From contig NZ_WKJI01000002.1 in the NCBI RefSeq assembly GCF_009674685.1, positions 930,001-994,000 of the forward strand: DNA of 64,000 nt, in the 5' to 3' direction. Position numbers and translations under genes: made by a program. The notes under the pieces are model-generated. The model was not told the DNA's origin, searched no databases, and was given only the letters and a program-made list of their open reading frames with translations. This document shows, piece by piece, positions 1-42,229 of the stretch (positions within the stretch are counted from its first letter, which is position 1; the number at the start of each line of letters is the position of its first letter). The DNA comes from Pedobacter puniceum. Lineage in GTDB: Bacteria; Bacteroidota; Bacteroidia; Sphingobacteriales; Sphingobacteriaceae.

Positions 1-322
1 GCAAGTTCCAATTAGAATTGTATTGGTATCCTTTAGGATCTTTATAAAACCATAGCTTACAAACCCCAAACCCTAAACTATCTAATTTTTTTGCTCCCTC
101 TACCAAAAAAGGTTCTTTGGTAAAAAAGTATTTCCCCCCAACATGGGTAGCGCCAATCATATCCTTAATATTAGCAGGTATTACTATACCTCTTAAGGGT
201 TTATTTTTCTCAATAATGCTTAAAACATCAGCATCATTTAGTTTAGCTTTGGTTTGAGCTATTGTACTGTAAGTTAAAAAACAGCAGTACAGCGCTAATA
301 TTTTCTTTGTAAATCCCATCAT
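1..322 (-). CDS. Partial secreted protein, probable TIM-barrel glycosidase of unassigned family (C-terminus outside window)
   Basis: About 107 residues are visible, starting at an ATG at 322 (a second ATG follows at 319) and running off the left edge. The N-terminus is a signal peptide ending near YSTIAQ. The following segment contains IGATHVGGKYF and then a helix leading to GFGVCKLWFYKD. This resembles the segment LGTHAISGSYK...MGSNILKISLGK of the lipoprotein at 5000-6352, and the pattern suits the first strand-helix-strand unit of a TIM-barrel glycosidase. The gene starts 1 nt after the stop of the GH2 gene, so the two are surely co-transcribed and belong to the same PUL. Being a glycosidase is inference from this resemblance and context. 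The catalytic region is not in the window. Confidence 0.6.
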   Translation of the reverse strand, partial: MMGFTKKILALYCCFLTYSTIAQTKAKLNDADVLSIIEKNKPLRGIVIPANIKDMIGATHVGGKYFFTKEPFLVEGAKKLDSLGFGVCKLWFYKDPKGYQYNSNWNL

Positions 323-323
323 A

Positions 324-3206
324 TTAATTAGTTGAAGCAATTTTAATATTATTTGTGTTTTGGATGTTATAGCCATCTACAGCAATTTCTACTTCTTTAT
401 TTTGATATGGATACTCAACTTTAATTTTGCGAGTTTCGCCTGGTAATAAATTAAAATATCCATCAGAGAAATAAGCAGGTAAAATAATTTCTTTAGTCTG
501 GCTATCTTTAAGATTTAACTTAATGGCAATTGCCGGAACTGATGATTTATTAGTTATGGTAAAATAGGTCTCAGAAGATTCTGCCTTTTTAGTGCTTGTT
601 ACATTAATTCCCAATTTTGCACTTTCTAAATCATTAAAAGCCAAGAAATTGCCAACATTTTTATTGTTTTTCCAATAATCATTATCAGATATAATATTAC
701 CGTTTTTATCTTTTAAAATTAATCTTACCAAATAATTGTTTGGTAAATTGGCAGGTAATGTGGCTTTAAATGCTTTATTTAATTGATTACTTAAGATATT
801 TAAATTTGCTTTTTGTGTAAAGATTGATTTACCTTTCAAATCAAATACTTCTAAAGTTACTACCGCATTTTGTATAGATTTTAAAGATGTATTTACAACT
901 ACAACCTGACTGTCGTTCAAATTCATTTGTACATGTATAGGTTCACAAGCTTTTTGAGAGGCGAAGTAAGAGCCAAAAGTTTCAAAATCCCATGAATAAA
1001 CTTGCCAAATCATACTTGGCCATGCAGGGTGGGTCATCCAAAGTAATAAACCACTAGTGTTATTCCACAACTTGCTATTCCAAGCCTCAAACATATGCCT
1101 ATGGCTATCATAGTTTACCATTTGTGCCTTTTTAGTAAATTCTTCTAAACTTGCAGAAGGTCCATACAGTGAATCAATTGTTTTAAGATATGGTTTTTGC
1201 CCGAAATGTAAATCGTGATAGTACCATACATCACTTATAGGCCAAACATCTTCTTTTGCCATCATTTTACGCATAGAAGCTGCCGTAGGAATAGATGGAG
1301 TGCCTAATTCTGTACTAAATCCATCGGCAAGTTTGTTAAAGTAAATCATGGGATGTTTTTGAAAGTCCCATGGACCACTATTTCTTAAATTTAATGATCT
1401 AGAATTTCCTTGATATAAACGAGTTCCGTCTTCTTTAGCGATTAAAGTGGCCAATTGTAAATCTAAACTTTTAGGAGCATAACCTTCGTTTCTTGGGCAC
1501 CAAACAGCAATTGAAGCATGATTTCTGTAACGCTTAACTACATCAATGGCATTATCCATAAACAAATGTTCATCCGATACATCTAGGTTATAGCCTAAGG
1601 TAGAAATCCAGAAGTCGTTCCAAACTAACATTCCGTATTCATCACATAAATCAAAAAATACTTCTTCTGTACTTTCACCAGTCCAGTTTCTAATCATGTT
1701 AAAATTAGCATCTTTATGTAGCTTAAAAGCAGGTTCTAGTTGTGCCCTAGACACTCTTTTCATGGCATCATCCATACCCCAGTTTCCGCCTTTGCAATAT
1801 ATTTTTTGTCCGTTTACCTTTATTACCAGAAAAGGAGCAGTACCAGTTTCTGTACTAGGTGTTAGAAGATTTGGATTTACATTTGGTAATAATGAAGGAA
1901 TAGAAACTTGTCTTGCTAATTCTCTTCTGTTAGCATTATCAAAAATTGGAGCTCCTGATTTTAGTGCGTTTATAGGATTAAATTCTACTCTTTTTGCTGG
2001 TTCTGATGGTACATCAACCGTTAAATCATAAGTATACTCTCTTACTCCAAAACGAACTAATTTTTCATCAGAAATCTTTCCGTTTATAGCAACTGTTAAG
2101 TTTAAATGATATAACTCTGGCTTGCCATAGCCATTAGGCCACCACAAACGAGGGTTCTTCATTTTTAATTGCGGAAATTGATCTGGCGAAAAAGAAACCT
2201 TTTTTGTTTCATCAGCTTTTAATTCAACCTCTTGTGAGAATTTTATTTCTCCAATTTTACCCGTTACTACAACTTTTTGATTGGTTTTTGATTGGTTAAC
2301 AAGCTCAGTGCTGATAAAAATATTAGCCTTTGAGGTATCTGGAAGTGGTAAATCTGTTACTACGTGAGGATTTAATATAGTTACATCATCAACTAATTTA
2401 AGTCTTACATCCTGCCAAATACCAATATTTCTATCTCTAATACCTGGCATCCAATCCCAACCTTCTGATGCGATAAAAGTAGGACCATCTAAAGTTAAAA
2501 GACCTCCGTTTGGACCACGTCCGGCACTAGGAGATTCTTCGTGAGGAATACCCGGATTTGGTGGAGGAATAATTCTTACTGCAATTGCATTTTCTTCTTT
2601 AGTGTTTAAATATTTTGTAATATCATAGCTACCTCTTTTAAAAGCGCCATTAATTTTTCCTAATAATTTGCCGTTTATCCAAATATCAGCTTGGTAATTA
2701 ATTCCATTGAAAACCAATAAAACATTCTTTTTGTTGCTAAGGTCTGGTGTTTTAAAAGTAGTTCTATACCACCAGTTTTGTCTTGATAAATCTTCCGGAA
2801 TAGCCAAATTGTTTAAACCAAAGTATGGGTCTGGGTAGACACCTTGGTTTACTAATGTTGTTAAAACAGTACCTGGGACGGTTGCATTATACCATTTTGA
2901 TGTACTTAAACTTGGGCTAGAAACATATGCGCCAGAACCATTAATTTCTGATGCTTGTATCATTTCCCAACCACCTGTAATTTCAAATTCATTATTGTTT
3001 AATGGTTTTAAAACAGTAACCGCATTTACTTTTTCTTTCTTTTGAGGAAAAACAACAGGCACCTTAGATTTTGGAAGCGTAGCAGGATCTTGTGGTTGAG
3101 ACAAACCATAATTTAGTTTGTCTTGAGCAACTGCAACCGAAAAAGCAAACATTAAACAACTAGAAATAGCTGTTTTTTTTAATTTAAAAAAGTTGTCTTT
3201 TAACAT
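324..3206 (-). CDS. Glycoside hydrolase family 2 protein (endo-beta-mannosidase / exo-beta-glucosaminidase-like)
   Basis: A 960-residue periplasmic or secreted exo-type glycosidase with an N-terminal signal peptide ending near VAVAQD. The jelly-roll N-domain carries WYNATVPGTVLTTLV and NWWYRTTFK, and the Ig-like part GWDWMPGIRDRNIGIW. The TIM barrel begins near CKGGNWGMDDA and includes NFNMIRNW. The presumed acid/base is E574 in WCPRNEG and the presumed nucleophile E633 in FSTELGTPS. A C-terminal beta domain follows. This layout and these motifs match the GH2 branch that holds mannosylglycoprotein endo-beta-mannosidase and CsxA exo-glucosaminidase rather than LacZ. Beside a sulfatase it probably trims a desulfated amino- or manno-configured sugar. 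The exact sugar cannot be read from the sequence. Confidence 0.85.
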   Translation of the reverse strand: MLKDNFFKLKKTAISSCLMFAFSVAVAQDKLNYGLSQPQDPATLPKSKVPVVFPQKKEKVNAVTVLKPLNNNEFEITGGWEMIQASEINGSGAYVSSPSLSTSKWYNATVPGTVLTTLVNQGVYPDPYFGLNNLAIPEDLSRQNWWYRTTFKTPDLSNKKNVLLVFNGINYQADIWINGKLLGKINGAFKRGSYDITKYLNTKEENAIAVRIIPPPNPGIPHEESPSAGRGPNGGLLTLDGPTFIASEGWDWMPGIRDRNIGIWQDVRLKLVDDVTILNPHVVTDLPLPDTSKANIFISTELVNQSKTNQKVVVTGKIGEIKFSQEVELKADETKKVSFSPDQFPQLKMKNPRLWWPNGYGKPELYHLNLTVAINGKISDEKLVRFGVREYTYDLTVDVPSEPAKRVEFNPINALKSGAPIFDNANRRELARQVSIPSLLPNVNPNLLTPSTETGTAPFLVIKVNGQKIYCKGGNWGMDDAMKRVSRAQLEPAFKLHKDANFNMIRNWTGESTEEVFFDLCDEYGMLVWNDFWISTLGYNLDVSDEHLFMDNAIDVVKRYRNHASIAVWCPRNEGYAPKSLDLQLATLIAKEDGTRLYQGNSRSLNLRNSGPWDFQKHPMIYFNKLADGFSTELGTPSIPTAASMRKMMAKEDVWPISDVWYYHDLHFGQKPYLKTIDSLYGPSASLEEFTKKAQMVNYDSHRHMFEAWNSKLWNNTSGLLLWMTHPAWPSMIWQVYSWDFETFGSYFASQKACEPIHVQMNLNDSQVVVVNTSLKSIQNAVVTLEVFDLKGKSIFTQKANLNILSNQLNKAFKATLPANLPNNYLVRLILKDKNGNIISDNDYWKNNKNVGNFLAFNDLESAKLGINVTSTKKAESSETYFTITNKSSVPAIAIKLNLKDSQTKEIILPAYFSDGYFNLLPGETRKIKVEYPYQNKEVEIAVDGYNIQNTNNIKIASTN

Positions 3207-3342
3207 GGTGTTGGAAAAATTATATTAAAAAAATTTTATAGAGACACTGTTTCAGCGCTCTTTTAAAAACATCAATAAGGTGTAATTTTTAGATTATGTA
3301 TTGGTCAAAATTTGTATCACAAAAAATGACTTATGTTGTCTT

Positions 3343-3375
3343 AAAAAGTCGTTCTTTTAAATCAGAACGACCTTT
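3343..3375 (-). terminator. Intrinsic terminator between sulfatase and GH2 genes
   Basis: An 8-bp perfect stem (GTCGTTCT at 3348-3355 with AGAACGAC at 3364-3371) is followed on the minus strand by a T run (TTTTTAAG). It lies just after the sulfatase stop and 137 nt before the GH2 start. It should end or reduce transcription from the upstream PUL genes, so GH2 and the partial gene after it probably have their own promoter. Confidence 0.7.
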
Positions 3376-3391
3376 TATCTTAGATTTAATT

Positions 3392-4954
3392 TTAATGCTG
3401 TGCTCCCGGAGCTTCTGTTTTTTCTCTCATGAGATATGATGGAAATTGTGCTGCTGGCGAGCCAAATTCATATCTTAAAATACTTTGACCTCCTCTATCA
3501 GGATTTAGTGGAATAAACATACCTCCTGTTTCAGTTAATTGTTTAAACAGCTCGGTATTCATCTCTTTTACAACTGATTTATATTTAGGATTTCTAATTA
3601 GATTTTTGGTTTCTAATGGGTCTTCAACCAAGTCATATAATTCATCAGTATCCCATATTCCGGTATAGTGTATATATTTATAACGCTCGCCTCTAAGTGC
3701 ATGAATAGTAGGTGTTTGAGGGTAATTGCGCTCCCAGTAATACTCATACAATAAACCATTTCTCCATGGTTGGTCTTCGCCTTTTAAGAAAGGTAAAAAG
3801 CTTTTTCCATCCATATAACTAGGAGCTTTTAAACCAGCTGCCTCTAGGAAAGTAGATGCTACATCAATATTTGCTACTACTTGTTTTACTACAGTTCCTG
3901 GTTTAATAATTTCTGGGCAGTGAGCCAGCATGGGTACTCGCATAGAGGCCTCATATGCTACACGCTTATCAATAAGTCCATGTTCTCCAAACTGGAAGCC
4001 ATTATCACCCATGTAAACAATTAGGGTAGACTCTAGCAGATTTTGCTTCTTTAAATAATCTATAATTCTACCAACAGATTCATCTACACTGTAAAGTGTT
4101 TCTGCATATCTTTTATAGTATTCTCCAATATTTAAGTTGCTATGATATGGGAATTCTACACCATGCCATGAATTACGTTGATTTTGTAACCACATTGGTG
4201 CACCTTGATGTGTACCAACATTCATGTTAAGTGGAGGGTTAAAGGCTAAATCGCCGGACATTCCTTTGTACTTATCCTCTGGAATAAAATCTGCATGTAC
4301 ACCTTTATGTGATAAATAAAGCATAAAAGGCTTTTTAGCATCTCTTTTATCTAAGAATTCTAAAGCATAGTCGGTTAATTCTGTAGTAATGTATCCTTTT
4401 TGTTTAACCCGATTACCATTTACATTTAATCCATTTTTTTCAGGTAAATAAGACCCTTGGCCTTTAAAAGAAACCCAATAATCAAAACCTCTTTGCGGAT
4501 TATCAAATTCTCCGCCCATGTGCCATTTACCAATCATTGCAGTTTGGTAACCTACTTTTTGCAAGTATTGAGGGTAAAAAACTAAGTCTTTAGATACCGG
4601 ATTATTATTGTCAACTACTTTATGTTTATGGGCGTATATACCTGTTAAAATTGAAGCCCTAGATGGCGAACATAATGAGGTGGTAACAAATGCATTAGGC
4701 AAATAAGCACCATTTGAAGCAAGAAAATCAAGATGAGGAGTTTTTATAAATGATTGAGCTTTTAGAAAACCTAAAGCATCAAAGCGATGATCATCAGTCA
4801 GAATAAAAACAATATTTCTTGGTTTTACTCCCGAGTTCTTAATTAGTTTTAATGAGCCATCCTTTTGTTGCACAGCAGCAGATTGCCCGTTCGCAATTTT
4901 GAATTGAACGATTAATAAGGCAATGTAAAACAGTTTAATTTTTATGTGTTTCAT
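3392..4954 (-). CDS. Sulfatase (formylglycine-dependent, S1 family)
   Basis: A 520-residue exported sulfatase with a signal peptide ending near KIANGQ. The alkaline-phosphatase-fold metal site begins at ILTDDH (D54, D55). The maturation motif is CSPSR with C95 as the residue converted to formylglycine. Further sulfatase features are KWHMGG and MGDNGFQFGEHG, which contributes more metal-binding D/N residues. The overall layout, including a C-terminal RYKYIHYTGIWDTDELYDL segment, resembles N-acetylglucosamine-6-sulfatase and mucin-desulfating enzymes of class S1, but the subfamily is a guess. It requires a formylglycine-generating or anSME-type activator encoded elsewhere. Its place between glycosidase genes suggests it removes sulfate from the PUL's glycan before the GH2 enzyme acts. 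Confidence 0.92.
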   Translation of the reverse strand: MKHIKIKLFYIALLIVQFKIANGQSAAVQQKDGSLKLIKNSGVKPRNIVFILTDDHRFDALGFLKAQSFIKTPHLDFLASNGAYLPNAFVTTSLCSPSRASILTGIYAHKHKVVDNNNPVSKDLVFYPQYLQKVGYQTAMIGKWHMGGEFDNPQRGFDYWVSFKGQGSYLPEKNGLNVNGNRVKQKGYITTELTDYALEFLDKRDAKKPFMLYLSHKGVHADFIPEDKYKGMSGDLAFNPPLNMNVGTHQGAPMWLQNQRNSWHGVEFPYHSNLNIGEYYKRYAETLYSVDESVGRIIDYLKKQNLLESTLIVYMGDNGFQFGEHGLIDKRVAYEASMRVPMLAHCPEIIKPGTVVKQVVANIDVASTFLEAAGLKAPSYMDGKSFLPFLKGEDQPWRNGLLYEYYWERNYPQTPTIHALRGERYKYIHYTGIWDTDELYDLVEDPLETKNLIRNPKYKSVVKEMNTELFKQLTETGGMFIPLNPDRGGQSILRYEFGSPAAQFPSYLMREKTEAPGAQH

Positions 4955-4999
4955 AAATCCTATTTGAAAATTTTCTATTATTAAAAACTTACTAAAACA

Positions 5000-6352
5000 T
5001 TAAAGTGTAGCTAATACTTCAATTGCTTTAGCTCTAAACTGTTCTGAATTTGGATAAGCATTGTTCTTGAGCTTTTCTTCCTTAAGGTAAGTATTCATTT
5101 TTTGATAAAAATTCTGATGTAAAAAGTATAACCTTGTTTTCTCTCCTTGTTCATTAATCAATGACATATGCTTAGAAGCTTTAGTAACATCATCATACTC
5201 ATTATTATACATTTGCCAGTGCAAGGCAAAGGGTAGGTTTAGCTCAAATGATATCTTCATAATTTCTTTACTTTCTTCAAATTGTTGTTGGAAAGTAGCA
5301 GGTCTTGAGGATTCTGCTTGATAACCGTATTCTCCTATGAAAACTCTTCTAGAAAACGGCAGTGAAGATTTAGGTTGAAGCTTTGATTCTAAATAATTAA
5401 AAATAGCCGTTAAGTCGCTCTTTTTTCTAGCATAAGTTTTATCCTTAATAGCTTCATAACTAGAATACGATATTAAATCTACATTTACCTGAGGTATAAC
5501 AGATTGTGCAACGCAGGGTTGTCCATTCATGCCTTTTTCAACTAAATTAGCCTCTATGTAATGATACATATAAACATTTTTAGAGGTTGATGCAGCTTTA
5601 GCATCATCAATAGCTTTTTGTCTTATCTGAAACCATTTGGCCATGTTGTTTAAAACGGCTGTAGAAGGCGTTGCATTACGGTCATAATTAGGAATTAATA
5701 ACCAATCTCCCTCCCAGTTTCCAATTAAAAATGTTTTTCCTGAATTGTTGTATCTATTAAGGATATAGGTAGCAAAATTGTACATTTCATCATATAAAAT
5801 TTTCTCATTTGCTCTACTAAGGTTATTCTTCCAATCAACATTTGTTAAAGTATGAACCCAAAAGAAAATGTACTTGAAATCTAAATCACATGCTATTTTA
5901 TAAGCAGCATTATTTGCAAAAAGATCTAAGGTAGTTTTACTAGCAACCGCTTCTCTAATTCCATAAGTTTCAGGTGAGTTTTTACCCAAAGAAATTTTAA
6001 GAATATTAGAGCCCATTTCTCTTACTTTTTGTGCCTGTTCAAGTAAACCATTACTGTTGGTTAATTTATAACTTCCTGATATAGCATGCGTACCTAGTAT
6101 AAAATTATAAGGCTCACGCTCAACAAATAGATCCTTAAGAACTAATTTTTTTTCTTCCTCTGTAGCTACTTTCTTACATGAAAATAATACCACTGTTGTG
6201 GTCAACAATATTGTTGTAAGTAATTGCACACGATGTTTTACAACTTTTTGGAAAGGAGCAATCAATACAAGTGAAACTTCTTGAAGAAGCATCTTTGAAT
6301 TTGTTTTAACTTGACAAAGTTTGCTTAAAGTAGAAAGATAATTTCGTTTCAT
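5000..6352 (-). CDS. Lipoprotein with TIM-barrel glycosidase-like features, family not recognised
   Basis: 450 residues. A long N-terminus leads to a hydrophobic stretch and the lipobox VVLFSC (C59), so the mature protein is an outer-membrane or periplasmic lipoprotein. The ATG at 6292 (residue 21) may be the real start, giving a signal peptide of more normal length. The body shows LGTHAISGSYK near residue 86, an aromatic strand FKYIFFWVHTL near 159, LIGNWEGDW with E214, and VFIGEYGYQAE with E341. A Glu after the middle strand and a Glu in GEYG about 127 residues later is the arrangement of acid/base and nucleophile in clan GH-A enzymes. I do not recognise a named family. The N-terminal barrel unit resembles the partial gene at 1-322. 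The sulfatase lies 45 nt downstream. Confidence 0.7.
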   Translation of the reverse strand: MKRNYLSTLSKLCQVKTNSKMLLQEVSLVLIAPFQKVVKHRVQLLTTILLTTTVVLFSCKKVATEEEKKLVLKDLFVEREPYNFILGTHAISGSYKLTNSNGLLEQAQKVREMGSNILKISLGKNSPETYGIREAVASKTTLDLFANNAAYKIACDLDFKYIFFWVHTLTNVDWKNNLSRANEKILYDEMYNFATYILNRYNNSGKTFLIGNWEGDWLLIPNYDRNATPSTAVLNNMAKWFQIRQKAIDDAKAASTSKNVYMYHYIEANLVEKGMNGQPCVAQSVIPQVNVDLISYSSYEAIKDKTYARKKSDLTAIFNYLESKLQPKSSLPFSRRVFIGEYGYQAESSRPATFQQQFEESKEIMKISFELNLPFALHWQMYNNEYDDVTKASKHMSLINEQGEKTRLYFLHQNFYQKMNTYLKEEKLKNNAYPNSEQFRAKAIEVLATL

Positions 6353-6403
6353 TAAGTTCGAATTAGGTTAATAATCAGGGTTTTTTTGCATATCACAGAA
6401 TAC

Positions 6404-7699
6404 TTATTTCAAAAACTTTTGATTAATGATTTCACTTTCTGTAGTGTATCTTAAAACATGTATTCCGTTTTGAAGTGTAGCGGGTAAAGAAAACGTATTG
6501 TAGCCTTTATTTACTTCAACTAAGGTTTCTGATAATTTACGTCCAGAAATATCAAAAAGCTGTAGTTTGCCTTTGGTGTTATTTGCTGAGGAAAGCGTGA
6601 TTTTTACATCTGACGGATTTGCGTAAATAGAAAGCTGTGAGGCCGCAATTTTTGAATTTACTGAAATCACATCTGACTCAGATGTTTTGCCATCAAAATC
6701 ATGCTGTATTAATTTGTAATAATTAGTTCCGGCAAATGGGTTTTCATCTACTAAACTGTAGTTTTTTACGCTTGTGCTATTGCCAGCACCGTCAACTTTA
6801 GCTATTACTGTAAATTTTTTGCCATCAGCAGAACGCAATACTTCAAAGTAATCATTGTCTTGTTCTGAAGCAGTTTCCCAGTTTAATAAAACATTTTGAT
6901 CTACTGCTTTACCAGTGAAAGATGTTAAACTTATGGGTAAAGTTAATGGTAATGATGTTATAGAGATATTATCAAAGTCAAAAGTTCCAGCTAAAGTTTG
7001 ACCAGGTATGGTAAATTTGAAACTAGATAAAGTGGATGTAGTTGCAGAAGCGGTTCCCTCATTTACCTCCAAATTATTACCAACCCAAATATCAAATCTA
7101 TCGTCGCCAACGGTTGCCACTGTTGAACCATCAGGAGCAATATATGATTTTGAAGCACCCGAATTGTTCGCAACAAGAGTAATGGTTTGAGTTCCACTGT
7201 AAAGTGTTCCCACTGGTGTTGTGGCCCCATTACCTGATACAAACCAACTATTTACTGTAGTTGATGAGTGTGTTATTGCTATTCTGCTATGAAAATTTGT
7301 TCCAACAACAGCATCTCCTGTTATTGTGCTTCCAATTAAAAAATTCACATTGGGTGAAGTTTGAAAAAGGCTAGCGTTTGAAACGGTATAGTTAAATTTA
7401 CACTGAACTAAGTCTATGTTGGCGCTTCCAAATCCGCTGGTACGAATAGCATAAAAAGGATTATTACTAGCGGACCCTGCTGTTGTTTTAACAACTCTCA
7501 ATGCATTATTAGTTATTGATGGGGTAGAGGTAGTAGTGTTGCCACTAACAATAGCTGTAAATTTATCTGATGCCGAACCATCAACATAATCTGCTACAAC
7601 ACCTCCAGCAGAAAAATCTTGACTAAATAAAGTTGTTTGTGCATTTGCTTTGATTCCGAAATAGAATACAAGTGCCGAGATAAGTAAAGTTTTTTTCAT
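6404..7699 (-). CDS. Secreted protein with type IX secretion C-terminal sorting domain
   Basis: 431 residues with a signal peptide ending near IKANAQ. Residues about 21-255 form a Thr/Ser/Asn-rich beta domain with no recognisable enzyme motif. The segment LPISLTSFTGKAVDQNVLLNWETASEQDNDYFEVLRS (about 255-292, described here only by its pattern) is the FN3-like module that commonly precedes Por secretion tails. The C-terminus (about 350-431) has the type A sorting-domain pattern: YANPSD, LQLFDISGRKL, and a final GIHVLRYTTESEIINQKFLK. It is therefore exported by the type IX system to the cell surface or medium. It sits between the PUL regulator and the putative glycosidases, and may be a glycan-binding or extracellular accessory protein, but its function is unknown. 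Confidence 0.8.
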   Translation of the reverse strand: MKKTLLISALVFYFGIKANAQTTLFSQDFSAGGVVADYVDGSASDKFTAIVSGNTTTSTPSITNNALRVVKTTAGSASNNPFYAIRTSGFGSANIDLVQCKFNYTVSNASLFQTSPNVNFLIGSTITGDAVVGTNFHSRIAITHSSTTVNSWFVSGNGATTPVGTLYSGTQTITLVANNSGASKSYIAPDGSTVATVGDDRFDIWVGNNLEVNEGTASATTSTLSSFKFTIPGQTLAGTFDFDNISITSLPLTLPISLTSFTGKAVDQNVLLNWETASEQDNDYFEVLRSADGKKFTVIAKVDGAGNSTSVKNYSLVDENPFAGTNYYKLIQHDFDGKTSESDVISVNSKIAASQLSIYANPSDVKITLSSANNTKGKLQLFDISGRKLSETLVEVNKGYNTFSLPATLQNGIHVLRYTTESEIINQKFLK

Positions 7700-7836
7700 T
7701 TTTTTAGGATTAATTGGTACGGTTTACATTAAAAAAAGTGTTTTTAATGATTACAATTTTACGTGTATCCTAAAATGAGTTATTGTACTATAGTATTTAA
7801 ATGTTATATACTAGTCCTAAACTATTAACTATACTT

Positions 7837-11994: not shown

Positions 11995-12329
11995 AATCCT
12001 CTCAGAGAGTTTAATTAAAAATCGACAGAAAAAAAGCAATGATATCTTACCTGTTTGTGTTGGCTTATACTAAACTAATAAAAAAAAAGGATTCAGCTAA
12101 AGTTTGCCTTATTTAAATTTCTTTTGTTTGAATTATTTTACAATTACAAATGAATGCAGGCATATAATCTGTGTAAATTATATAAGTAGAAATTTGTGTA
12201 TTTGGTATAACGGTTAATATTAGACCTAAAATTTGTAAGTAGCCATTAGTATGACTTAAGTTAATTTCAGCAAAAAGCCTTATCCCATCAAAAAATATGA
12301 GATAAGGCTGCAAAGACATATCAGATTAA
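11995..12329. other. Intergenic region between HTCS and the Fasciclin-DNRLRE gene
   Basis: This 335-nt stretch holds the terminator at 12271-12309 and presumably the HTCS promoter. No TAnnTTTG promoter with good spacing was recognised on the minus strand. A 68-codon frame here has no convincing features and is not called. Confidence 0.5.
12271..12309 (-). terminator. Intrinsic terminator after the SusCD-surface lipoprotein genes
   Basis: A 9-bp perfect stem (AGCCTTATC at 12276-12284 with GATAAGGCT at 12301-12309) is followed on the minus strand by TTTTTG. It lies 21 nt after the stop of the Fasciclin/DNRLRE gene and ends the susC-susD-lipoprotein transcript before the HTCS gene. Confidence 0.85.
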
Positions 12330-13853
12330 TTACCTGATATTAATGTTGAGGTTAATTAGTTGATTATATATACCTCCTTGGAAATCTCTAGCTTCTAAAG
12401 TTAAAGCATCTGTACTAGGTGAAGTACCATTGTATAAGTACTTTACTACTCCTTTTGCTATCTGCTCTTGAGTAAAAGAAGAGTTTACGAGTAATGGAAT
12501 ACCATTTAAAACTAAGAACCCATTTTGCGGAGCCTGGGTTAAAGTATAAGAAATGTTTTTATCAGCAGTACCTTGAAATCTAAGCTCATTTAAAGACAAT
12601 ACTTTAACGGGATTTGAGACTGAAACTTCAAGTGGATTATTTGCCGCTGGACTAATAATACTTACTGGTGGGCTGCTTAAAATTAACCTTGATCTGAAAG
12701 CTCCACCGCTAAATTCTTTAGAGCGAAAATGCGTATTTAGATCTTGAACAACAGCTCCACCAATATTGACAAAAGTTTTACCCTGTGTTAAAGCGGCGTT
12801 GTAGAAAGAGGTAATATCAATATTTGCCCATGTATTCCTCATAGCTTGAGTTACGTTTATACTTCCAATGGAAATAGAACCAAAAGTTGGTGCAGTTACC
12901 CAGCTTACAGTACTCTCATTCCAATCAACATTTTGATCTTCAAAGAAATTCATGGTGGTAGCATTTTGAATAGTATTGAAAAACATTTCAAGCCTTACAG
13001 TTCCAATTCTACCACTAAAACGAGGTGCTCTAACGGCATATTGGGTTAAGGTTCTCTTACTAAAACTTGCCGCATTACCTGTTGCACCAAATAATTTAGT
13101 TTGTACATCCAATACTGCTCCATAATTTAATGTTCTATTAGCGGTCCCATTTTGAAGGTAGGTGTCTTTAGTTACATAAATAGTATCACTTAGGATAGAA
13201 ACATTTGCCGGGTTCACTTGGTCCTGAGGATTTGTTTTAGCAATATAATAAGTAAAACTATTTACCACATGAGCTACTCCATTAATAAACTCCAGATTTT
13301 GAGTTCTAACACTAGCACTTACAGAGCTAGCATTAGGAGAGGCGTTTACGGTTAGTACATATTCATTGCCCACAGCAATAGTACGGGTAAGGTATAAACT
13401 ATCATTACTTAAACTAGGGTAAGATTTATCCACGCCTGCTTCTAAATCAAAAGATCTTACACGCCCCTCAATAATATTATTAAGTAATATATTTTTTAAA
13501 ATAATTGGAGGTACATCTTCTACTTCAGTATAACCTAAACCTATAATAAAGTTTAACAGAACATCATCATTAGGAATAATTACCGTTAAGTTTTGTTTAG
13601 AATCATTTAGTAAATCTTTTAAACCTGCATGCTGTACAGCTTTACCAAATAAACCAATCTTTGTAGGATCATTTTCATGAAAGTTGTTTTCTGATACAAA
13701 TTCCCATATAGTTTTAGTTTTAAGATTTATACCAGCCGAAATATGCTCTACATCCTCATTTTTGAGGAGTGAAAATTTTTCACAAGAAGTGATACTTATA
13801 CTAAGTATCATTGTACAGATTAAAATCTTTAGATAAGTTATTTTCTTCATCAT
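12330..13853 (-). CDS. Surface lipoprotein: Fasciclin + DNRLRE + cadherin/CSPG-like domains
   Basis: 507 residues with lipobox ITSC (C24). Residues about 45-210 are a Fasciclin (FAS1) domain (LTVIIPNDDVLLNFI, then FINGVAHVVNSF). Residues about 225-395 match the DNRLRE/CBM96-like pattern: DTIYVTKDTYLQNGTANRTLNYG, a beta-rich centre, WNESTVSWVTAP and a late FRSRLILSS. Residues about 405-507 look like a cadherin/CSPG repeat (LRFQGTADKNISYTLTQAPQNGFLVLNG). Being third after susC-susD with a 9-nt gap, it occupies the slot of a SusE/SGBP-B glycan-binding protein. DNRLRE modules are known in alginate- and other polysaccharide-acting proteins, so carbohydrate binding is a reasonable inference. Which domain binds the ligand is unknown. 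Confidence 0.8.
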   Translation of the reverse strand: MMKKITYLKILICTMILSISITSCEKFSLLKNEDVEHISAGINLKTKTIWEFVSENNFHENDPTKIGLFGKAVQHAGLKDLLNDSKQNLTVIIPNDDVLLNFIIGLGYTEVEDVPPIILKNILLNNIIEGRVRSFDLEAGVDKSYPSLSNDSLYLTRTIAVGNEYVLTVNASPNASSVSASVRTQNLEFINGVAHVVNSFTYYIAKTNPQDQVNPANVSILSDTIYVTKDTYLQNGTANRTLNYGAVLDVQTKLFGATGNAASFSKRTLTQYAVRAPRFSGRIGTVRLEMFFNTIQNATTMNFFEDQNVDWNESTVSWVTAPTFGSISIGSINVTQAMRNTWANIDITSFYNAALTQGKTFVNIGGAVVQDLNTHFRSKEFSGGAFRSRLILSSPPVSIISPAANNPLEVSVSNPVKVLSLNELRFQGTADKNISYTLTQAPQNGFLVLNGIPLLVNSSFTQEQIAKGVVKYLYNGTSPSTDALTLEARDFQGGIYNQLINLNINIR

Positions 13854-13862
13854 TTCTTGATT

Positions 13863-15371
13863 TTATTTGTAAAAATTATTTTGTTCTATTGATGGATTTA
13901 ATCTGATTATATTTAAGTTAATCGGAAATAAGATATTTTCCGGATTAGTTAATCCATTTATAGGTCCCATTACTGATATAGCTCTACGCGTTCTTACCAA
14001 ATCAAACCATCTTTTACCTTCAAAACATAACTCTTTTTGTCTTTCTTCCAAAATCACATCAATTGCTGCACTTCTAGAAAGCGCCATAAATCTGGCCATT
14101 TCATCACTTCCGGTTGGCCCTGTAACCGCATTATTGTATTGATTTGGATTAGTTGCTGTTGCTACTGGTCCAAATGTTCTTTCTCTGATCCTCTTAAGTA
14201 AATTCCAAGCAGCATTTCTATCTCCTTTGGTAACAAAAGCTTCGGCTCTTAATAAAATAATATCGGCTAATCGGTAAAGAATTACGTTTTTATCGTTTTG
14301 AGTAGTTCTATCAAAAGTTCCTTTAGGAAATTGTTTAAATATTTGAACACTAGACCTAAAATTGGTTAACGTTCTTAAATCTGTTGATGAAAATTTGGAA
14401 GCAAAATTAGCATTAGCTACAAATTGAGCTACACCAGAACCACCAGCAAATAAAGCCAATAAACCCGAAGTAGTACCCTCTTCAAAGCTGTATTCAATCT
14501 CAAAAATAGATTCTGGACTAAAACCATCAATAAACATTTTAGCGTATTCTGTATTGTCTATGTCTACTTGTGGTCTACTTAAATAATCTATGTTAGGGTC
14601 ATACAATGCTGCTAATCTGTATTGTGCAGTATTATCTAGAATATTTTTAGAGAAAATTAATGCGCTATCAACGTTATTGCGCCACATGTAATAGTCGGTA
14701 AGAATTGCGTCTATTCCTCCTTTGGTTAACGTAGCTCTGGTTCTTTTAGCATCAGTATAAGATGCTGGTAATAAATCTCTTGCCTGTAATAAATCTGTAG
14801 CAACTTGGTTATAAACTTTTAAAGAATCTGTTCTTGGTGTTTTAAAAGAGTTAATGTCTCCATTATTTAGGATGGGCTCTGTAATTAAAGGCACATTACC
14901 CCAAACTTTAGTCATGAGCAAATAGCAGTATGCTCTTAAACCTAAAGCCTGCCCCAAAACCCTATTATACTCAGCCGTTTGGTTAACGTAAACCCCTCTT
15001 TCCCTCATTTCTTTTACATTCTTGATAATCAAGTTGGCTTGGCCAATCACTCTGTAAAAGTTAGACCAATCAGTTATTCCTAAATCAGGACTTAACCTAT
15101 TGCCTAAAAGAGCTATGTTGGTAACATTATCTTCTCTGGGTACAGCAAGAATGTCTGCTCTGGCTTCTCCATATAATACAAATTCAGTATTTAAGGTAGA
15201 TTGTAGCCTAAAATAAGCCCCACTTAAGGCTGCACTAGCTTGCGAAGGCTCATTCCAATAATTATCGTAAGCATATTCTGTTAAAGGATCACGGTCTAAA
15301 GCAGATTTACATGAACTAACAACTGCTAAAAGACAGCCTAATCCGGTTAAAAGTTTTATGATATTTTTCAT
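13863..15371 (-). CDS. SusD/RagB family outer-membrane lipoprotein
   Basis: 502 residues with lipobox VSSC (C21), then the SusD start pattern LDRDPLTEYAYDNYWNEPSQASAAL. TPR-like helices follow, including ALGLRAYCYLLMTKVWGNVPLI. The C-terminal SusD domain has YRLADIILLRAEAFVTKG, EERQKELCFEGKRWFDLVRTRR and a final asparagine-rich tail. It caps the SusC barrel and captures glycan at the cell surface. The gene starts 4 nt after susC, so translation is probably coupled. Confidence 0.95.
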   Translation of the reverse strand: MKNIIKLLTGLGCLLAVVSSCKSALDRDPLTEYAYDNYWNEPSQASAALSGAYFRLQSTLNTEFVLYGEARADILAVPREDNVTNIALLGNRLSPDLGITDWSNFYRVIGQANLIIKNVKEMRERGVYVNQTAEYNRVLGQALGLRAYCYLLMTKVWGNVPLITEPILNNGDINSFKTPRTDSLKVYNQVATDLLQARDLLPASYTDAKRTRATLTKGGIDAILTDYYMWRNNVDSALIFSKNILDNTAQYRLAALYDPNIDYLSRPQVDIDNTEYAKMFIDGFSPESIFEIEYSFEEGTTSGLLALFAGGSGVAQFVANANFASKFSSTDLRTLTNFRSSVQIFKQFPKGTFDRTTQNDKNVILYRLADIILLRAEAFVTKGDRNAAWNLLKRIRERTFGPVATATNPNQYNNAVTGPTGSDEMARFMALSRSAAIDVILEERQKELCFEGKRWFDLVRTRRAISVMGPINGLTNPENILFPINLNIIRLNPSIEQNNFYK

Positions 15372-15375
15372 GTAA

Positions 15376-18300
15376 TTAAAATTTAATATTTAGAGATAGG
15401 TTATAAGATCTGGTTCTAGGGAATGAACCATTGTCAACGCCAAATCCTAGTGGATTGTTTCCAGCGCTTACCTCTGGGTCGTAGCCACTGTAGCTTCCAA
15501 AAGTGAATAGATTTTGAACGCTAAAACCTAAATTGGCAGAACTTAATCCAATATTTTTTATGGTCTTTGGAGGTAAATTGTAACTTAACGCCAAATTTTG
15601 AACTCTGATAAAAGAGCCGTCTTCTACAAACAAGCTACTTACCGAATAATTTCTCATACGGTCGCCTCTCTCTAATCTTGGTACATCAGTTACATCACCT
15701 TGTTGTCTCCATCTTCTTAATTGTCTAGTTGAATAGTTCACATCAAATTGATTACCATCTAAACTTCTATTCAATTGGTTAAAGATATCGTTACCAAAAA
15801 CAGCGTTAACAAATAGGTTTAATGTGAAACGCTTATAAGAAAAGGTGTTCTGAAATCCACCAAAAGCTTTTGGTGTTGGATTACCTATAATTTGCTGGTC
15901 ATCAATATCAATAATACCATCATTATTAATGTCTTCAAAAATTACGTCACCACCTTTATATACATCTCCGTCTGCAGAACCTCTCCTGTACTGAGAAATC
16001 TGTCCATTAGCATCTATATATACATTATCTTCATCTCTAGCATAAATTCCTAAAGCCTTAAAACCATAAAAAACACCTACAGCCTCGCCAACACGAGCCA
16101 AACTAAAATTAGTTGGTCTATAATCCTCATTGCCAGGTAATGAAGTAACTTTATTTCTATTTAAACCAAATGTTACTGTTGATGACCATTTAAAGGCTTT
16201 GTCAATAATTACTCCATCTACAGATAACTCTACACCTTTATTACTTAAACTTCCGAAGTTAAACGGAATAAAGCTATAACCTGTTTGGGTTGGGATTTGG
16301 ACATTAAACAATAAGTCGTCACTATTTTTAGTGTAATAATCCGCTGTAAAATTTAGTCGACCTTTAAAGAAGGAAAGATCTGTACCTATGTCAAATTGTT
16401 TGGTGGTTTCCCATCTTAAATCTGCATTTCCAAGAGCATCTGCGGTAATAGAAACTTCGCCTAAATAAGAGCCAGCTCTTCCTAAAGAACCTCTTGAAGC
16501 ATAGTTAGCAATATTTTGATTTCCTGTGATACCATAACTCGCTCTTAATTTACCATCATATAACCAACCTAGCTCTTTGCTCCATTTTTCCTCAGAAAAA
16601 CGCCAACCTCCTGATACTGAAGGGAAATAAGAGTTTTGATTGGCAGCCCCAAATCTAGAGGAACCATCTCTCCTCATTAAGAAAGAAAGTAGGTATTTAC
16701 CTTTATAATTATAGTTTGCTCTGGTAAAGTAAGAAAGTAAAACGTTCTCTTGTATACTTTGATTAAAAGTGGCAATACTTGCCGAGCCACTTATCGAAGT
16801 AATTTGATTATCGATATTTCCTATTCCTCTTACAAAAGTGCTATTGGTTTTAAAAATCTGATAAGATTGGCCCAATAAGAAAGTAAGATTGTGCTTTTTC
16901 TTAAATGTCTTTTTATAAGTCAGTGTATTCTCATTTACTATTGAAGATCTCAATTCAGGACGATAGTCACTAAAAATTGATTGCGCTGATAAGTTGGTGG
17001 ATAAGATAGGAGGGTTGTAGAAAAAACTCTCCGTATTGCTATAATCCAATGAAATATTAGTTCTAAAATCTAATCCTTTTAATAGGGTGGCAGTAAATTC
17101 TTGCTTAGCCAAGATACGCCATCTTTTTACATCATTAGTCATGTATAAAGCTTGGGCTAAAGGATTGGGTCTAGACGACTCAAATAAGGGAATAATATTT
17201 CCGGTAATAGGGTCATAGGGGCTATACACCGGAAAACTTCCTAAATACCTAAAAATGATGCTGTTATCTTGTCGGTTGTAGTTGTAGTTAGACAAATTAA
17301 AGTTAGTAGAACCCTTTATAAACTTACTGATGTTATAATTTACCTTAGCATTCCCAAAAACTTGTTTGTACTGTGTTTCAATAACAATTGGCGCTAAATC
17401 TCTGTAGCCAGCACTAATAAAATAGTCTACATTTTTCTCCTTAGAAGTACCACTTACACTTAAATCTAGCTTTTGTTGAAAAGTTTCGCGATACATAATA
17501 TCCTGATAATCATAAGAATCACGATAATATGGATGTAAAGAATCATATAAAGGAATACGTGTAGGAGGCAAGCCAGTAGCATTAAAAGCAGCATCATAAT
17601 TTGCACTCCTGAATTGAGTGGCATTAAGAATTCCTATTTTTCTTGAAATGTCAACAAAGCTACTATTGTAGGCCAAATTTATAGTTGGCTTAGTACTCGT
17701 TCCTGTTTTAGTAGTGATTAATATAACGCCGTTTGATGCTCTTGAACCATAAATAGATGCTGTTCCTGCATCCTTTAAAACTTCTATAGAAGCAATATCT
17801 GCTGGGTTAATATCGTTTAACGGACTAAAAGAAGCTCCATCATTTAAAGATTCAAAAGTGTCATTGTTTACAGGAATTCCATCAATGATAAATAAAGGCT
17901 GACTTGCCCCATTAATAGAAGAAACACCCCTAAGAGTAATATTTGCACCTGCCCCAGGCTCTCCAGAATTAGTGGTGATTTGTAAACCCGCAATTTTACC
18001 TTGTAAACTGGTGTTAATAGAGCCACCTGCAAACTGGTCTATTTGATCTGCCTTTATAGAACTTGCAGCACCTGTTATTTCACTTTTAGCTTGCGTTCCA
18101 TATCCTACAACAACTACTTCATTTAAATTAGTGTAATTTTCACTTAACTGAACATCAATAACAGATTGATTACCAATTTTTCTCTCTGTGGTTTTAAATC
18201 CAACATAAGAAAAAACTAAGACGGCATTTTCATCAGCAACTTTAATGCTGTATTTACCATCAATATTAGTTTGTGAAGAAATATTAGTGTTTTTTACTCT

Positions 18301-18546
18301 TACAACTACACCAGGCAATGCTTCCCCATTTACATCAGTAACTTTACCGTTAATTGTCAACTGTTTTTGTACCTGCTTAAAGGTCTCAGTATTTTCAATA
18401 ATAATAGTATTGTTAAATCCAGAAGCGCTAGCATGTAGGATTGTTGCTGTAAGTAAAATAAATGTAAGTTTCACTATGGGTAAACTTCTTTTAAAGGAGG
18501 TATAATTTTGCTTTTTACGTATAGTGCTTCTACCATAGAAATTCAT
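15376..18546 (-). CDS. SusC/RagA family TonB-dependent outer-membrane transporter
   Basis: 1056 residues from the ATG at 18546. A frame extension to a TTG at 18600 exists, but the ATG has an AGAAG site ahead of it. A signal segment ends near LHASAS. A carboxypeptidase-regulatory-like domain (about 63-135; ITINGKVTDVNGEALPGVVV) is followed by the EVVVVGYGTQ box, the plug (about 150-280; LFIIDGIPVNND, IEVLKDAGTASIYGSRASNGVI), and a 22-strand-type barrel ending SYNLSLNIKF. It imports oligosaccharides across the outer membrane with SusD. No anti-sigma-interacting signalling domain is seen, which agrees with control by the HTCS. Confidence 0.96.
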   Translation of the reverse strand: MNFYGRSTIRKKQNYTSFKRSLPIVKLTFILLTATILHASASGFNNTIIIENTETFKQVQKQLTINGKVTDVNGEALPGVVVRVKNTNISSQTNIDGKYSIKVADENAVLVFSYVGFKTTERKIGNQSVIDVQLSENYTNLNEVVVVGYGTQAKSEITGAASSIKADQIDQFAGGSINTSLQGKIAGLQITTNSGEPGAGANITLRGVSSINGASQPLFIIDGIPVNNDTFESLNDGASFSPLNDINPADIASIEVLKDAGTASIYGSRASNGVILITTKTGTSTKPTINLAYNSSFVDISRKIGILNATQFRSANYDAAFNATGLPPTRIPLYDSLHPYYRDSYDYQDIMYRETFQQKLDLSVSGTSKEKNVDYFISAGYRDLAPIVIETQYKQVFGNAKVNYNISKFIKGSTNFNLSNYNYNRQDNSIIFRYLGSFPVYSPYDPITGNIIPLFESSRPNPLAQALYMTNDVKRWRILAKQEFTATLLKGLDFRTNISLDYSNTESFFYNPPILSTNLSAQSIFSDYRPELRSSIVNENTLTYKKTFKKKHNLTFLLGQSYQIFKTNSTFVRGIGNIDNQITSISGSASIATFNQSIQENVLLSYFTRANYNYKGKYLLSFLMRRDGSSRFGAANQNSYFPSVSGGWRFSEEKWSKELGWLYDGKLRASYGITGNQNIANYASRGSLGRAGSYLGEVSITADALGNADLRWETTKQFDIGTDLSFFKGRLNFTADYYTKNSDDLLFNVQIPTQTGYSFIPFNFGSLSNKGVELSVDGVIIDKAFKWSSTVTFGLNRNKVTSLPGNEDYRPTNFSLARVGEAVGVFYGFKALGIYARDEDNVYIDANGQISQYRRGSADGDVYKGGDVIFEDINNDGIIDIDDQQIIGNPTPKAFGGFQNTFSYKRFTLNLFVNAVFGNDIFNQLNRSLDGNQFDVNYSTRQLRRWRQQGDVTDVPRLERGDRMRNYSVSSLFVEDGSFIRVQNLALSYNLPPKTIKNIGLSSANLGFSVQNLFTFGSYSGYDPEVSAGNNPLGFGVDNGSFPRTRSYNLSLNIKF

Positions 18547-19310
18547 ACTTCTAAATTTAGTTTGGTTTATAATTAGGTTTATTATACTGTATTTTTTCAA
18601 GACAACTCAAATTCACTTTTTTTACACTCAAACCGAAAAGTGAATCAAATTGGACTGCATTATTAATTTTTGAAATACCCTTATTGTACTTAAAACAAGG
18701 TATGGTTGTATGATAATTTTCGTAGTCTTTAATAGCTTTAGCTTCTCCATTGGGTTGCTGCTGATTAAGCTTAACAAGCTTTTTAGTAATGTGCGAACCG
18801 CCAACATCTGCGTTCATCACAATATGAGGTGCGCTTTTCATTTGTTTTGAAATTTTATACTAACTGGTTTATTTGGTTTATAAAGCAATGTTAGACAAAA
18901 CATAAGCTTTAGTATTATACAAGAGTCTATTTTGATTGTACCAAAGTCTTGCTTTTTCAAAAAAAGCTTAAATACACACAATAAATAGGTATTTATCTAT
19001 AATCAAATGCATACTTACAACTTGAAATCAACTAAATAGTATATTCAAAAAAATTAAACAATTATATAGTAGTGTCTCTTGTTCGTCTTACTTAAGTTAG
19101 TTAGAATTTTATGGATTTCGTCTTAAAAAGAATGGGTTGTCTTCTGCTTAGCGATATCTGAGGGTGTAGTTCAAAAATCATTTGAACATAATCTAGCAAG
19201 GCATTAAGGTTTAGGAAATTAATTGAGAAAAGTTGATTATTTTATTAGAAGAATAAACCAGTAATAAAAGTTATCTTATCAAGTTAATAGTTCTCTAAAA
19301 CGCATAAAAA
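18547..19310. other. Upstream region of the first PUL
   Basis: This 760-nt stretch between susC and the tRNA terminator contains the susC promoter region and a small frame at 18557-18841 listed separately. An AT-only palindrome (ATAAATA-GG-TATTTAT at 18981-18996) lies about 435 nt before susC. No clear -7/-33 pair was found. The rest shows nothing recognisable. Confidence 0.4.
18557..18841 (-). pseudogene. Possible remnant of a ROK-type sugar kinase (94-codon frame)
   Basis: The frame starts MKSAPHIVMNADVGGSHITK. DVGGSHIT is the phosphate-1 motif with which ROK family kinases/regulators begin, at the right distance from the N-terminus (residues 12-19). After about 35 residues the sequence becomes featureless and stops, so a functional kinase (about 300 residues) is not present. 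It may be a decayed gene end left upstream of susC, or chance. The frame lies in the likely susC leader. Confidence 0.2.
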
Positions 19311-19343: not shown

Positions 19344-19344
19344 G

Positions 19345-19418
19345 CGGAATGGACGGGACTCGAACCCGCGACCTCCTGCGTGACAGGCAGGCATTCTAAC
19401 CAGCTGAACTACCACTCC
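19345..19418 (-). tRNA. tRNA-Asp (GTC)
   Basis: A 74-nt cloverleaf read on the minus strand. The acceptor stem is GGAGTGG paired with CCATTCC, with one G-T pair. The D-arm is AGTTCAGCTGGTTAGAAT and the T-arm contains GGGTTCGAGTCCC. The anticodon GTC lies at 19384-19382. The discriminator base is G, and the CCA end is not fully encoded (GCA follows). Confidence 0.97.
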
Positions 19419-19447
19419 GTTTTTCCCGTTCTTATCGTTCGGGAGTG

Positions 19448-19478
19448 CAAATATAGGTATTTCTATTGAAGTGCAAAA
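19448..19478 (-). promoter_or_regulatory. Bacteroidota-type promoter of tRNA-Asp
   Basis: The minus strand carries TATATTTG (-7 type, 19455-19448) preceded by TTTTG (-33 type, 19478-19474) with an 18-nt spacer. This fits the TTTG-N19-TAnnTTTG consensus. The predicted start lies about 20 nt before the mature tRNA. Confidence 0.75.
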
Positions 19479-19491
19479 TCTTTTTTAAAAT

Positions 19492-28858: not shown

Positions 28859-28899
28859 TTATAGTATTTATGCTTAAAGTTTAAGCTCGGTTTATCCCC

Positions 28900-29856: not shown

Positions 29857-30059
29857 TTTAAAGTATCTTATACGTGGTAAAAATGGTTTTTTTGTCCAAT
29901 TGTTGAAATCATTTATAATCATCAATGATTATGATACTGTAAAATTAGGCACTTGCCAAAAAAACTCATAAAGCTGCTTATACAGCTTAATATGAATTAT
30001 TAAAATACATCTATATTTAGGTAAATCTTTTACCTAAAACCATAAAGCCTAATAACACC
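29857..30059. repeat. Spacer with duplicated upstream sequence of paralogue 3
   Basis: Positions 29954-30059 repeat the sequence at 27787-27898. An 8-bp perfect hairpin (ATAATCAT/ATGATTAT, 29915-29932) lies just before it. Confidence 0.7.
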
Positions 30060-37256: not shown

Positions 37257-37586
37257 GAATGTTTATGAAGTATAATTTAATGGTTTACAATTATCAAGAT
37301 ACAAATCTATTTTCAATTTCATACAGAAACTGTAATCGTGATAACATTCAACGTCTCAATTTGTGTTTAAAGTCATTTTAAACCCGATTTTTTTATTTGA
37401 AGCTTACATGATGTAGTATTATTGTAGTACCTCTAAAACTTAATTTCAAGGATATTGTAGTGGTTATATAGTACTTCATAATGATGCTGGTACACAAATT
37501 GAATTTACTTTTGTTCTGTTGTTTAAGATGCCAATCTTAACAGCCATTAACCAATTAAATAAATTATACAACTTAACTTATTGTTT
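37257..37586. promoter_or_regulatory. Divergent regulatory region of the second PUL, with paired direct repeats
   Basis: 330 nt between the regulator and susC. TGTAGTATTATTGTAGTAC (37412-37430) and TGTAGTGGTTATATAGTAC (37456-37474) match at 14 of 19 positions and start 44 nt apart, about four helical turns on the same DNA face. This is a plausible operator for the HTH regulator. No standard -7 element was recognised with confidence. Confidence 0.4.
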
Positions 37587-40673: not shown

Positions 40674-40691
40674 TTCAAAGAAATTAAAAAC

Positions 40692-42212: not shown

Positions 42213-42229
42213 CGTTTAAGATACATGTT

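Follow-up and report, generated by a model that had tools for sequence, protein, structure and literature searches.

According to the available text of PMC13063451, the C6-sulfated alpha-1,3-mannan of diatoms is degraded by an S1_51 sulfatase, glycoside hydrolase (GH) family GH195, GH92 and an S1_11 mannose-6-sulfate sulfatase, and because an S1_11 enzyme serves this degradation, S1_11 does act on sulfated mannose. The accessible part of PMC6298971 reports beta-mannan polysaccharide utilization loci (PULs) of marine Flavobacteriia that hold GH130 together with GH26 and are called non-sulfated. Enzymes of polysaccharide lyase family 35 (PL35) degrade several glycosaminoglycans (GAGs), as stated in the portions at hand of PMC11262172 and PMC12088678. 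Here we describe a locus at the left end of a 64,000-nucleotide stretch of Pedobacter puniceum DNA (the window; contig positions 930001-994000, G000:C2, genome size 3.9 Mb). The gene content, families, predicted folds, invariant residues and conserved neighbourhoods of the locus were computed. The results showed that it is a PUL for a sulfated glycan with two members, named BarA and BarB, of an unclassified GH-A-like family. Judged from sequence comparison, there is an even chance that the locus serves a 6-O-sulfated, mannose-containing polysaccharide with beta-mannosidic bonds and that BarA and BarB are unclassified retaining glycosidases of clan GH-A.

A characterised PUL of the same gene order would have told against the sequence-only reading, an earlier annotation made from the letters of the window alone. 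The nearest published one among those compared, the Polaribacter PUL for diatom alpha-1,3-mannan (PbSulf1-GH195, GH92 and the S1_11 sulfatase PbSulf2), uses other glycosidases as far as the text obtained of PMC13063451 goes. Both are Bacteroidota PULs with an S1_11 or S1_11-like sulfatase and a glycosidase family that was new when described. Unlike the Polaribacter PUL, which acts on an alpha-linked mannan with GH92 and the GH99-like GH195, the window locus has barrels of GH-A layout with no sequence link to families in the Protein Data Bank (PDB). Identity with the diatom system was rejected, GH92 and GH99-like genes not being recognised among the scanned window genes. The likeness to marine beta-mannan PULs lies in a GH130 that accompanies the PUL in relatives of the window locus only; unlike those non-sulfated, GH26-containing systems of PMC6298971 (available part), the loci described here carry sulfatases and the new barrels.

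BarA and BarB are paralogues with 26.6% identity over 331 aa (E 5e-30). No convincing barrel relative was found in NCBIfam (June 2026), Pfam (2025) or PDB sequences (2026), the releases to which the word unclassified refers and among which CAZy does not figure; with single proteins as with a 94-row profile, the weak matches were scattered over unrelated families. For the 94 members no GH family appeared among the Pfam and NCBIfam matches, and the PDB profile search gave 0 matches. The sequence-only reading had left the two proteins as barrels of a glycosidase family not recognised; no established family claimed them in these libraries, and both proved to belong to one family. The 94-row alignment comprises 113 open reading frames (ORFs) minus six short ones and 14 near-copies (>85% alike), plus the window protein.

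AlphaFold2 models of the window BarB and of the BarA orthologue in locus L019 had confidence scores (pLDDT) of 93.2 and 93.6, respectively, and both form a (beta/alpha)8 barrel with eight strands. Two glutamates predicted to be catalytic stand at strands 4 and 7 of BarB (Table 1); in the BarA model, glutamates 183 and 314 lie beside strands 176-180 and 310-315. The strand-4 and strand-7 positions are glutamate in 94/94 domains. As the NWEGD search pattern occurs in 69/94 rows, conservation of this motif is partly selected for, and the scan pattern used, NWEGD(W/G)(LIM)L, favours it, which tells against the proposed reading. Both glutamates were nevertheless kept in the 25 rows lacking the scan pattern and in 20/20 rows lacking either search pattern. 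Glu229 and Asn231 by strand 5 and Trp341 after strand 8 (distinct from Glu341 of the ORF) were also invariant (94/94). The barrels thus show the clan GH-A features of a (beta/alpha)8 barrel and two glutamates at the C-terminal ends of strands 4 and 7. An Asn immediately before the acid/base is usual, not universal, in clan GH-A; here the motif is N-W-E, with the Asn two residues before the Glu in 89/94 domains. In these models, the residue arrangement of BarA and BarB is the clan GH-A layout. Foldseek placed GH5_18 enzymes at the top for BarB and BarA and a GH164 beta-mannosidase in both lists; the barrels share their (beta/alpha)8 fold with the GH5_18 and GH164 beta-mannosidases of clan GH-A, which are among the first matches.

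A contig scan of 84,980 species genomes revealed at least 74 barrel loci (referred to by L numbers), obtained from the best 80 of 87 relatives, for which reason the breadth of the family is a lower bound. The number of genomes is smaller than 74, since L068/L075 and L069/L082 are overlapping stretches of shared contigs and two assemblies account for L019/L071 and L020/L021/L073/L074. In L023, L025, L027 and L076 the barrel ORFs were uncalled and overlapping ORFs were taken, although tblastn did match there. Most hosts belong to the Bacteroidota; the others are Verrucomicrobiota, Sphingomonadaceae, Planctomycetota, Armatimonadota, Lentisphaerota, Myxococcota and one haloarchaeal metagenome-assembled genome (MAG). 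In a quick tree the family fell into two parts, one with BarA and one with BarB. Three barrels in a row stand beside SusC in 13/74 loci (20 loci were grouped as triple-barrel). The family was present in 3/150 related genomes (the window's own and two others of the genus), and a 395-genome sample of the phylum yielded it in the window's own genome plus one further doubtful match (E 4e-4); the first step of both searches is loose, and distant members may have escaped them. These data suggest that the family is rare and patchy. A scan of viral contigs gave 48 pattern matches and no barrel relative, and a fold search of BFVD gave only distant GH5-like and other viral barrel proteins. Divergent members with long C-terminal extensions occur in P. 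glucosidilyticus (L071:9890-13681, 1263 aa; L012 and L014, 638 aa). The haloarchaeal MAG, which may be contaminated, has a long-branched member inside an 1116-aa frame (L065:3251-6601).

The sulfatase of the locus combines a PF00884 domain with the formylglycine motif CSPSR, of the C-x-P-x-R type. Its closest PDB scores were to a mucin-desulfating sulfatase and a GlcNAc-6-sulfatase; 5g2v was the second-best match, and 7lj2 is the same chain as the matched 7lha. Since the available text of PMC13063451 names 5g2v and 7lj2 as S1_11, the window sulfatase appears S1_11-like in sequence; the same text reports that S1_11 can act on mannose-6-sulfate. Genes of the formylglycine-generating enzyme (FGE) family are present in the source genome, which gave 19 sulfatase matches. 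A sulfatase lies in the same-strand run of 12/13 loci with three barrels in a row (two or more in 8/13), and that run showed no match to the GH2, GH116 or lyase references in the 13 loci. Two sphingomonads (L086, L087) have an FGE-type sulfatase-modifying gene a short distance behind the barrel. The sulfatase genome search was restricted to about 42 scored candidates in each genome, and we claim no enrichment of sulfatases.

The neighbours of the barrels in relatives point to mannose. Neighbour calls are tblastn matches to chosen reference genes in the 74 loci, with the SASA and GH3 labels assigned partly by eye and other families counting as unknown; the GH130 and sulfatase genome searches covered 41 of the 74 loci (41 genomes). 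GH130, a family with beta-mannoside phosphorylases, was found within 15 kb of a barrel in 13/41 genomes (L024, L032, L037, L048, L049, L050, L053, L055, L057, L060, L067, L070, L088), compared to an expectation of 0.61 calculated from how many GH130 genes those genomes have. This expectation is slightly too high, as split matches were included; the tail of 6e-11 refers to 11 or more and ignores shared ancestry. L045 has a GH130 by tblastn, is absent from the genome-search list and stands outside the 13. The GH130 loci occur in both deep clades of the barrel family, and their GH130 proteins are mutually alike, at about 45-78% to three references, whereas those from two stretches outside the barrel neighbourhoods (L100, L102) show 27-32% likeness. 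The usual marine order is GH130, SSS symporter, S1_11-like sulfatase, HTCS (hybrid two-component system regulator), barrels, SusC, SusD and sulfatases. In addition, phosphomannose isomerase (PMI)-type genes occur in seven loci (L034, L036, L086, L087, L089 and beside L057 and L053, as L094 and L095), and all three that were scanned reached the Pfam cut-offs (L034, L094, L095).

The GH2 of the locus scored about 207-213 bits to both the exo-beta-glucosaminidase CsxA and the GH2 beta-mannosidases (7op6, 2je8), with which it shares its domain architecture. An N-E acid/base motif, a Glu nucleophile and a GWDW-type motif form the signature of GH2 beta-mannosidases, and S-D in place of N-E marks exo-glucosaminidases. 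The CsxA chains differ among themselves at the bracketed residues of GS[D]FAP and FNS[E]TSAG, as active-site mutants would; at those positions the window GH2 has RN-E and ST-E, and 7op6 has NN-E and MS-E. Thus the window GH2 is unlike CsxA, having N-E as in 7op6 and not S-D. The N-E motif was found in 20/20 aligned GH2 proteins (the window's and 19 neighbours), with GWDW in 19/20 and GWNW in 1/20. Because N-E is kept, beta-mannosidase is preferred over exo-glucosaminidase, the latter being rejected on this motif, and the window GH2 is a probable beta-mannosidase by its residues. GH2 genes (38-95% to the window's) occur in 23/74 loci by tblastn: 12/22 BarA-core loci, 5/5 BarB loci of Chitinophagaceae (three genomes) and 6/6 sphingomonad/planctomycete loci, with none in the 20 triple-barrel loci or the 18 other verrucomicrobial and mixed loci. 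A 27% match in the Pedobacter locus L071 was left out of this count, and the frequencies of GH2, PMI and uronate genes are raw counts, not set against a background rate. L032 and L037 are the only loci in which both GH130 and GH2 were seen, a pattern that would suit alternative routes for taking off beta-mannose.

Several results weigh against beta-mannosidic cleavage of a sulfated mannose polymer. The fold likeness to beta-mannosidases is weak (TM score about 0.5, about 10% identity, no profile-level match to GH5_18 or GH164), and a second aligner (VIA), whose list does not exclude families outside it, gave its highest score to GH1 beta-glucosidases, GH39, GH5, GH2 and GH157 being no more than one or two Z units behind; the fold matches therefore tell the clan, not the substrate. 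The GH130 loci are not independent, 8/13 looking like one ancestral PUL, and the barrel-linked GH130 proteins are nearest to beta-1,2-mannoside phosphorylases yet score far under the equivalog thresholds of NCBIfam. In L034 and L089, the two loci whose PMI proteins were scanned with NCBIfam, the score stays under the manA equivalog cut-off. The mannose evidence comes from relatives, and among the window genes none was identified as mannose-specific; the genome search found no GH130 in the window's genome or in 11/41 searched genomes, several BarA-core ones among them, and of the P. glucosidilyticus genomes one gave a weak GH130 match and the other none. The top PDB score of the GH2 is to CsxA, and glucosamine-6-sulfate and 6-sulfated porphyran sugars are further substrates of S1_11 enzymes (PMC13063451, text at hand). 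Finally, some loci hold GH9, GH3-like, PL35-like and uronate genes, so the polymer would not be a simple mannan. On balance, with the modelled active site and the neighbourhoods considered together, the barrels are probably an unclassified retaining GH-A family cleaving beta-mannosides.

From these data we infer the substrate, the linkage, the endo or exo action and the activity of each enzyme as follows. The HTCS would sense a breakdown product of the glycan, and SusC/SusD together with the CBM96 lipoprotein would bind and import fragments. BarA and BarB would probably cleave beta-mannosidic (or mannose-linked) bonds, with the Glu of NWEGD as predicted acid/base and that of GE(Y/I)G as predicted nucleophile, while the S1 sulfatase would take 6-O-sulfate off a hexose and the GH2 would trim beta-mannose from fragment ends. 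GH116, the ROK kinase and central metabolism would complete the breakdown.

The main competing explanation, which we hold to be unlikely, is that the target is a uronate-containing sulfated heteroglycan, such as a glucuronomannan or a xanthan-like algal or cyanobacterial exopolysaccharide; the barrels would then cut a backbone that is not beta-mannosidic (e.g. beta-glucosidic or beta-glucuronidic), and GH2 or GH130 would only trim side-chain mannose. Evidence for uronate comes in part from contig C4 of the source genome, which carries a second locus paralogous to that of the window: a 1.5-kb part of the GH2/BarA region shows 72% DNA identity, and its barrel is 63% identical to BarA. This locus holds SusC/SusD pairs, a sulfatase, GH2, a ROK kinase, esterase-like genes and two DUF4962 lyase-like proteins, one above and one below the Pfam cut-off. 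The lyase-like protein that was searched is nearest to PL35-type structures (8khw, E 6e-55; 9o3q, annotated 'PL35 chondroitinase', E 6e-45); unlike the PL35 GAG lyases, the lyases here adjoin barrels, GH2 and sulfatase. A DUF4962-type lyase is also present in 8/22 BarA-core loci, the weak matches of L030 and L031, which covered only a TIG-like stretch, being excluded. Other neighbours are KduI/KduD (L022, L046), KduD alone (L023), UxuA/UxuB (L034), GH88 with a PF14099 lyase (L028) and GH9 (L032, L037). The lyase, KduI/KduD, UxuA/UxuB and GH88 neighbours suggest that part of the barrel family works on a polymer containing uronic acid, and GH116 in the window locus would also suit a heteroglycan. 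However, no lyase was recognised by Pfam in the window locus or immediately beyond its left edge, and no match to the lyase, GH9 or GH3 references appeared in the triple-barrel PULs or in the small cassettes of Chitinophagaceae and sphingomonads, save a TIG-only match in L079. The 'unusual sugars' of the sequence-only reading were not established; the comparative evidence points instead to mannose and 6-O-sulfate, with uronic acid in related loci.

Some further proteins of the BarA-core loci were noted. A 599-aa protein of the C4 locus (L005:8927-10726), with relatives at 49-66% in 10/22 BarA-core loci and a 96% orthologue in L021, gave no convincing Pfam match and no significant PDB match, and is a second candidate for an undescribed PUL family. 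A DUF3823 protein of about 242 aa (L029:9138-9866) is found in 12/22 BarA-core loci, itself included, mostly right after SusD. A 154-aa repetitive frame between the sulfatase and type IX secretion system (T9SS) genes of the C4 locus (L004:6964-7428) is probably no gene but an array of DNA repeats.

It is rather improbable that the barrels already bear a CAZy number and that only their substrate context is new. The libraries compared exclude CAZy and dbCAN, and new families reach at least GH195 (PMC13063451, part available); set against this are the lack of a convincing match in the three dated releases and a literature search that found no description of the barrel family or the locus, although a text search would miss an unnamed family. 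Still less probable is a GAG-like or GlcNAc-6-sulfate target. Of the substrates listed by the sequence-only reading, GAGs stay in consideration as an alternative, with the GH2 as exo-beta-glucosaminidase, the sulfatase as GlcNAc-6-sulfatase and the PL35-like enzymes as GAG lyases. The best scores of GH2 and sulfatase and the action of PL35 enzymes on GAGs (PMC12088678, accessible text) agree with such a target, but the N-E pair of the GH2 where CsxA chains vary and the GH130 and PMI neighbours do not, and no hexosamine gene was noticed in neighbourhoods that were annotated in part only. An N-glycan target was rejected, as no GH18, GH20 or GH92 was recognised among the Pfam-scanned genes (one scan covering the 25 commonest of 72 families).

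With respect to the beta-mannosidic reading, we put forward a stronger form tentatively: BarA and BarB may be founding members of a new GH-A family acting on an undescribed 6-sulfated mannose (partly mannose and uronate) polysaccharide with beta-mannosidic bonds, a polymer that would be present in both sea and fresh water and might be a natural substrate of PL35-type lyases, at present described as broad GAG lyases. A glycosidase-like family with well-marked predicted catalytic residues, spread over several phyla and often found beside sulfatases, would offer a handle on a sulfated polysaccharide unexplained by the characterised PULs compared. The small gene sets (barrel, sulfatase, GH2 or GH130) are cheap targets for expression, and the enzymes could then serve to find and measure the glycan in nature, as done for diatom alpha-mannan.

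The remaining features of the locus are listed in Table 1. All nine genes named by the sequence-only reading are open frames on the minus strand at the places given for them (ORF list, Pfam and NCBIfam scans); eight carry or match named features, and the ninth is the partial BarA gene. The adjacent SusC and SusD homologues (Pfam, NCBIfam) identify a PUL, and the regulator unites sensor propeller, kinase, receiver and AraC-type helix-turn-helix in one protein (Pfam), as in an HTCS; together with the sulfatase motif, these domains bear out the HTCS-controlled SusCD locus with a sulfatase that had been proposed. Transcription would run leftwards from SusC (18600) beyond the window edge, where, as anticipated, the locus continues with the rest of BarA, followed by a ROK kinase, GH116, a 199-aa protein and a PhoD-like phosphatase. 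The source genome is close to Pedobacter glucosidilyticus, BarA being 88% identical to its counterpart in strain DSM 23534. In two assemblies of that species (L019, L020) the genes for BarB, GH116, the 199-aa protein, sulfatase, GH2, BarA and ROK are clustered in a different order, indicating that GH116 and ROK belong to the locus, and in two P. glucosidilyticus genomes (L013, L017) the T9SS protein also adjoins BarB. The surface lipoprotein next to SusD is a probable glycan-binding protein. The right boundary is formed by a tRNA-Asp and one gene (together window 19344-20565) just upstream of SusC, a gene that we take to encode peptide chain release factor 1.

Table 1. Features of the barrel-containing PUL in the window, with the evidence for each
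Feature	Position in window	Strand	Evidence
SusC/RagA TonB-dependent outer-membrane transporter	15376..18600	-	TIGR04056, 833 bits, E 4e-250; Pfam Plug and barrel
SusD-like surface glycan-binding lipoprotein	13863..15371	-	PF07980, PF14322
Surface lipoprotein, fasciclin, CBM96 (DNRLRE) and cadherin-like	12330..13853	-	PF02469, PF24517, PF16184, NF033679
HTCS sensor/regulator	7837..12039	-	Reg_prop propellers, Y_Y_Y, HisKA, HATPase_c, Response_reg, HTH_18
T9SS-sorted secreted protein, function unassigned	6404..7699	-	TIGR04183, 37 bits, above cut-off; Pfam tail below cut-off
BarB, lipoprotein, unclassified (beta/alpha)8 glycosidase-like family	5000..6352	-	AlphaFold2 model, fold matches, 94-row alignment
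BarB Glu214 codon (NWEGD), predicted acid/base, just past strand 4	5711..5713	-	DSSP strand 4 = model 169-173, Glu = model 176
BarB Glu341 codon (GEYG), predicted nucleophile, end of strand 7	5330..5332	-	DSSP strand 7 = model 299-304, Glu = model 303
S1 sulfatase, S1_11-like by closest solved relatives	3392..4954	-	PF00884, PF16347 (SGSH_C); 7p24 and 5g2v best
Sulfatase Cys95 codon (CSPSR)	4670-4672	-	C-x-P-x-R motif
GH2 exo-glycosidase, probable beta-mannosidase	324..3206	-	Pfam GH2 domains, residue alignment, motif table
GH2 Glu574 codon, predicted acid/base	1485-1487	-	Alignment to 2vzo-type chains and 7op6
GH2 Glu633 codon, predicted nucleophile	1308-1310	-	Alignment to 2vzo-type chains and 7op6
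BarA, first 125 codons	2-376	-	Whole gene of 425 aa = L003:17099-18376 (G000:C2:929099-930376)

Elsewhere in the window, a second, ordinary-looking PUL was found at 34356-46727, with a propeller regulator at 34356-37256 on the minus strand and SusC, SusD, a PKD lipoprotein, GH16 and GH3 on the plus strand; it probably targets beta-1,3-glucan. Three tandem, similar-looking genes of about 318 aa lie at 27899-31016, and the one that was scanned ends in a TonB_C domain. At 54235-58397, a fused trehalose-6-phosphate synthase/phosphatase adjoins a GH15-type enzyme with a trehalase-like N-terminus.

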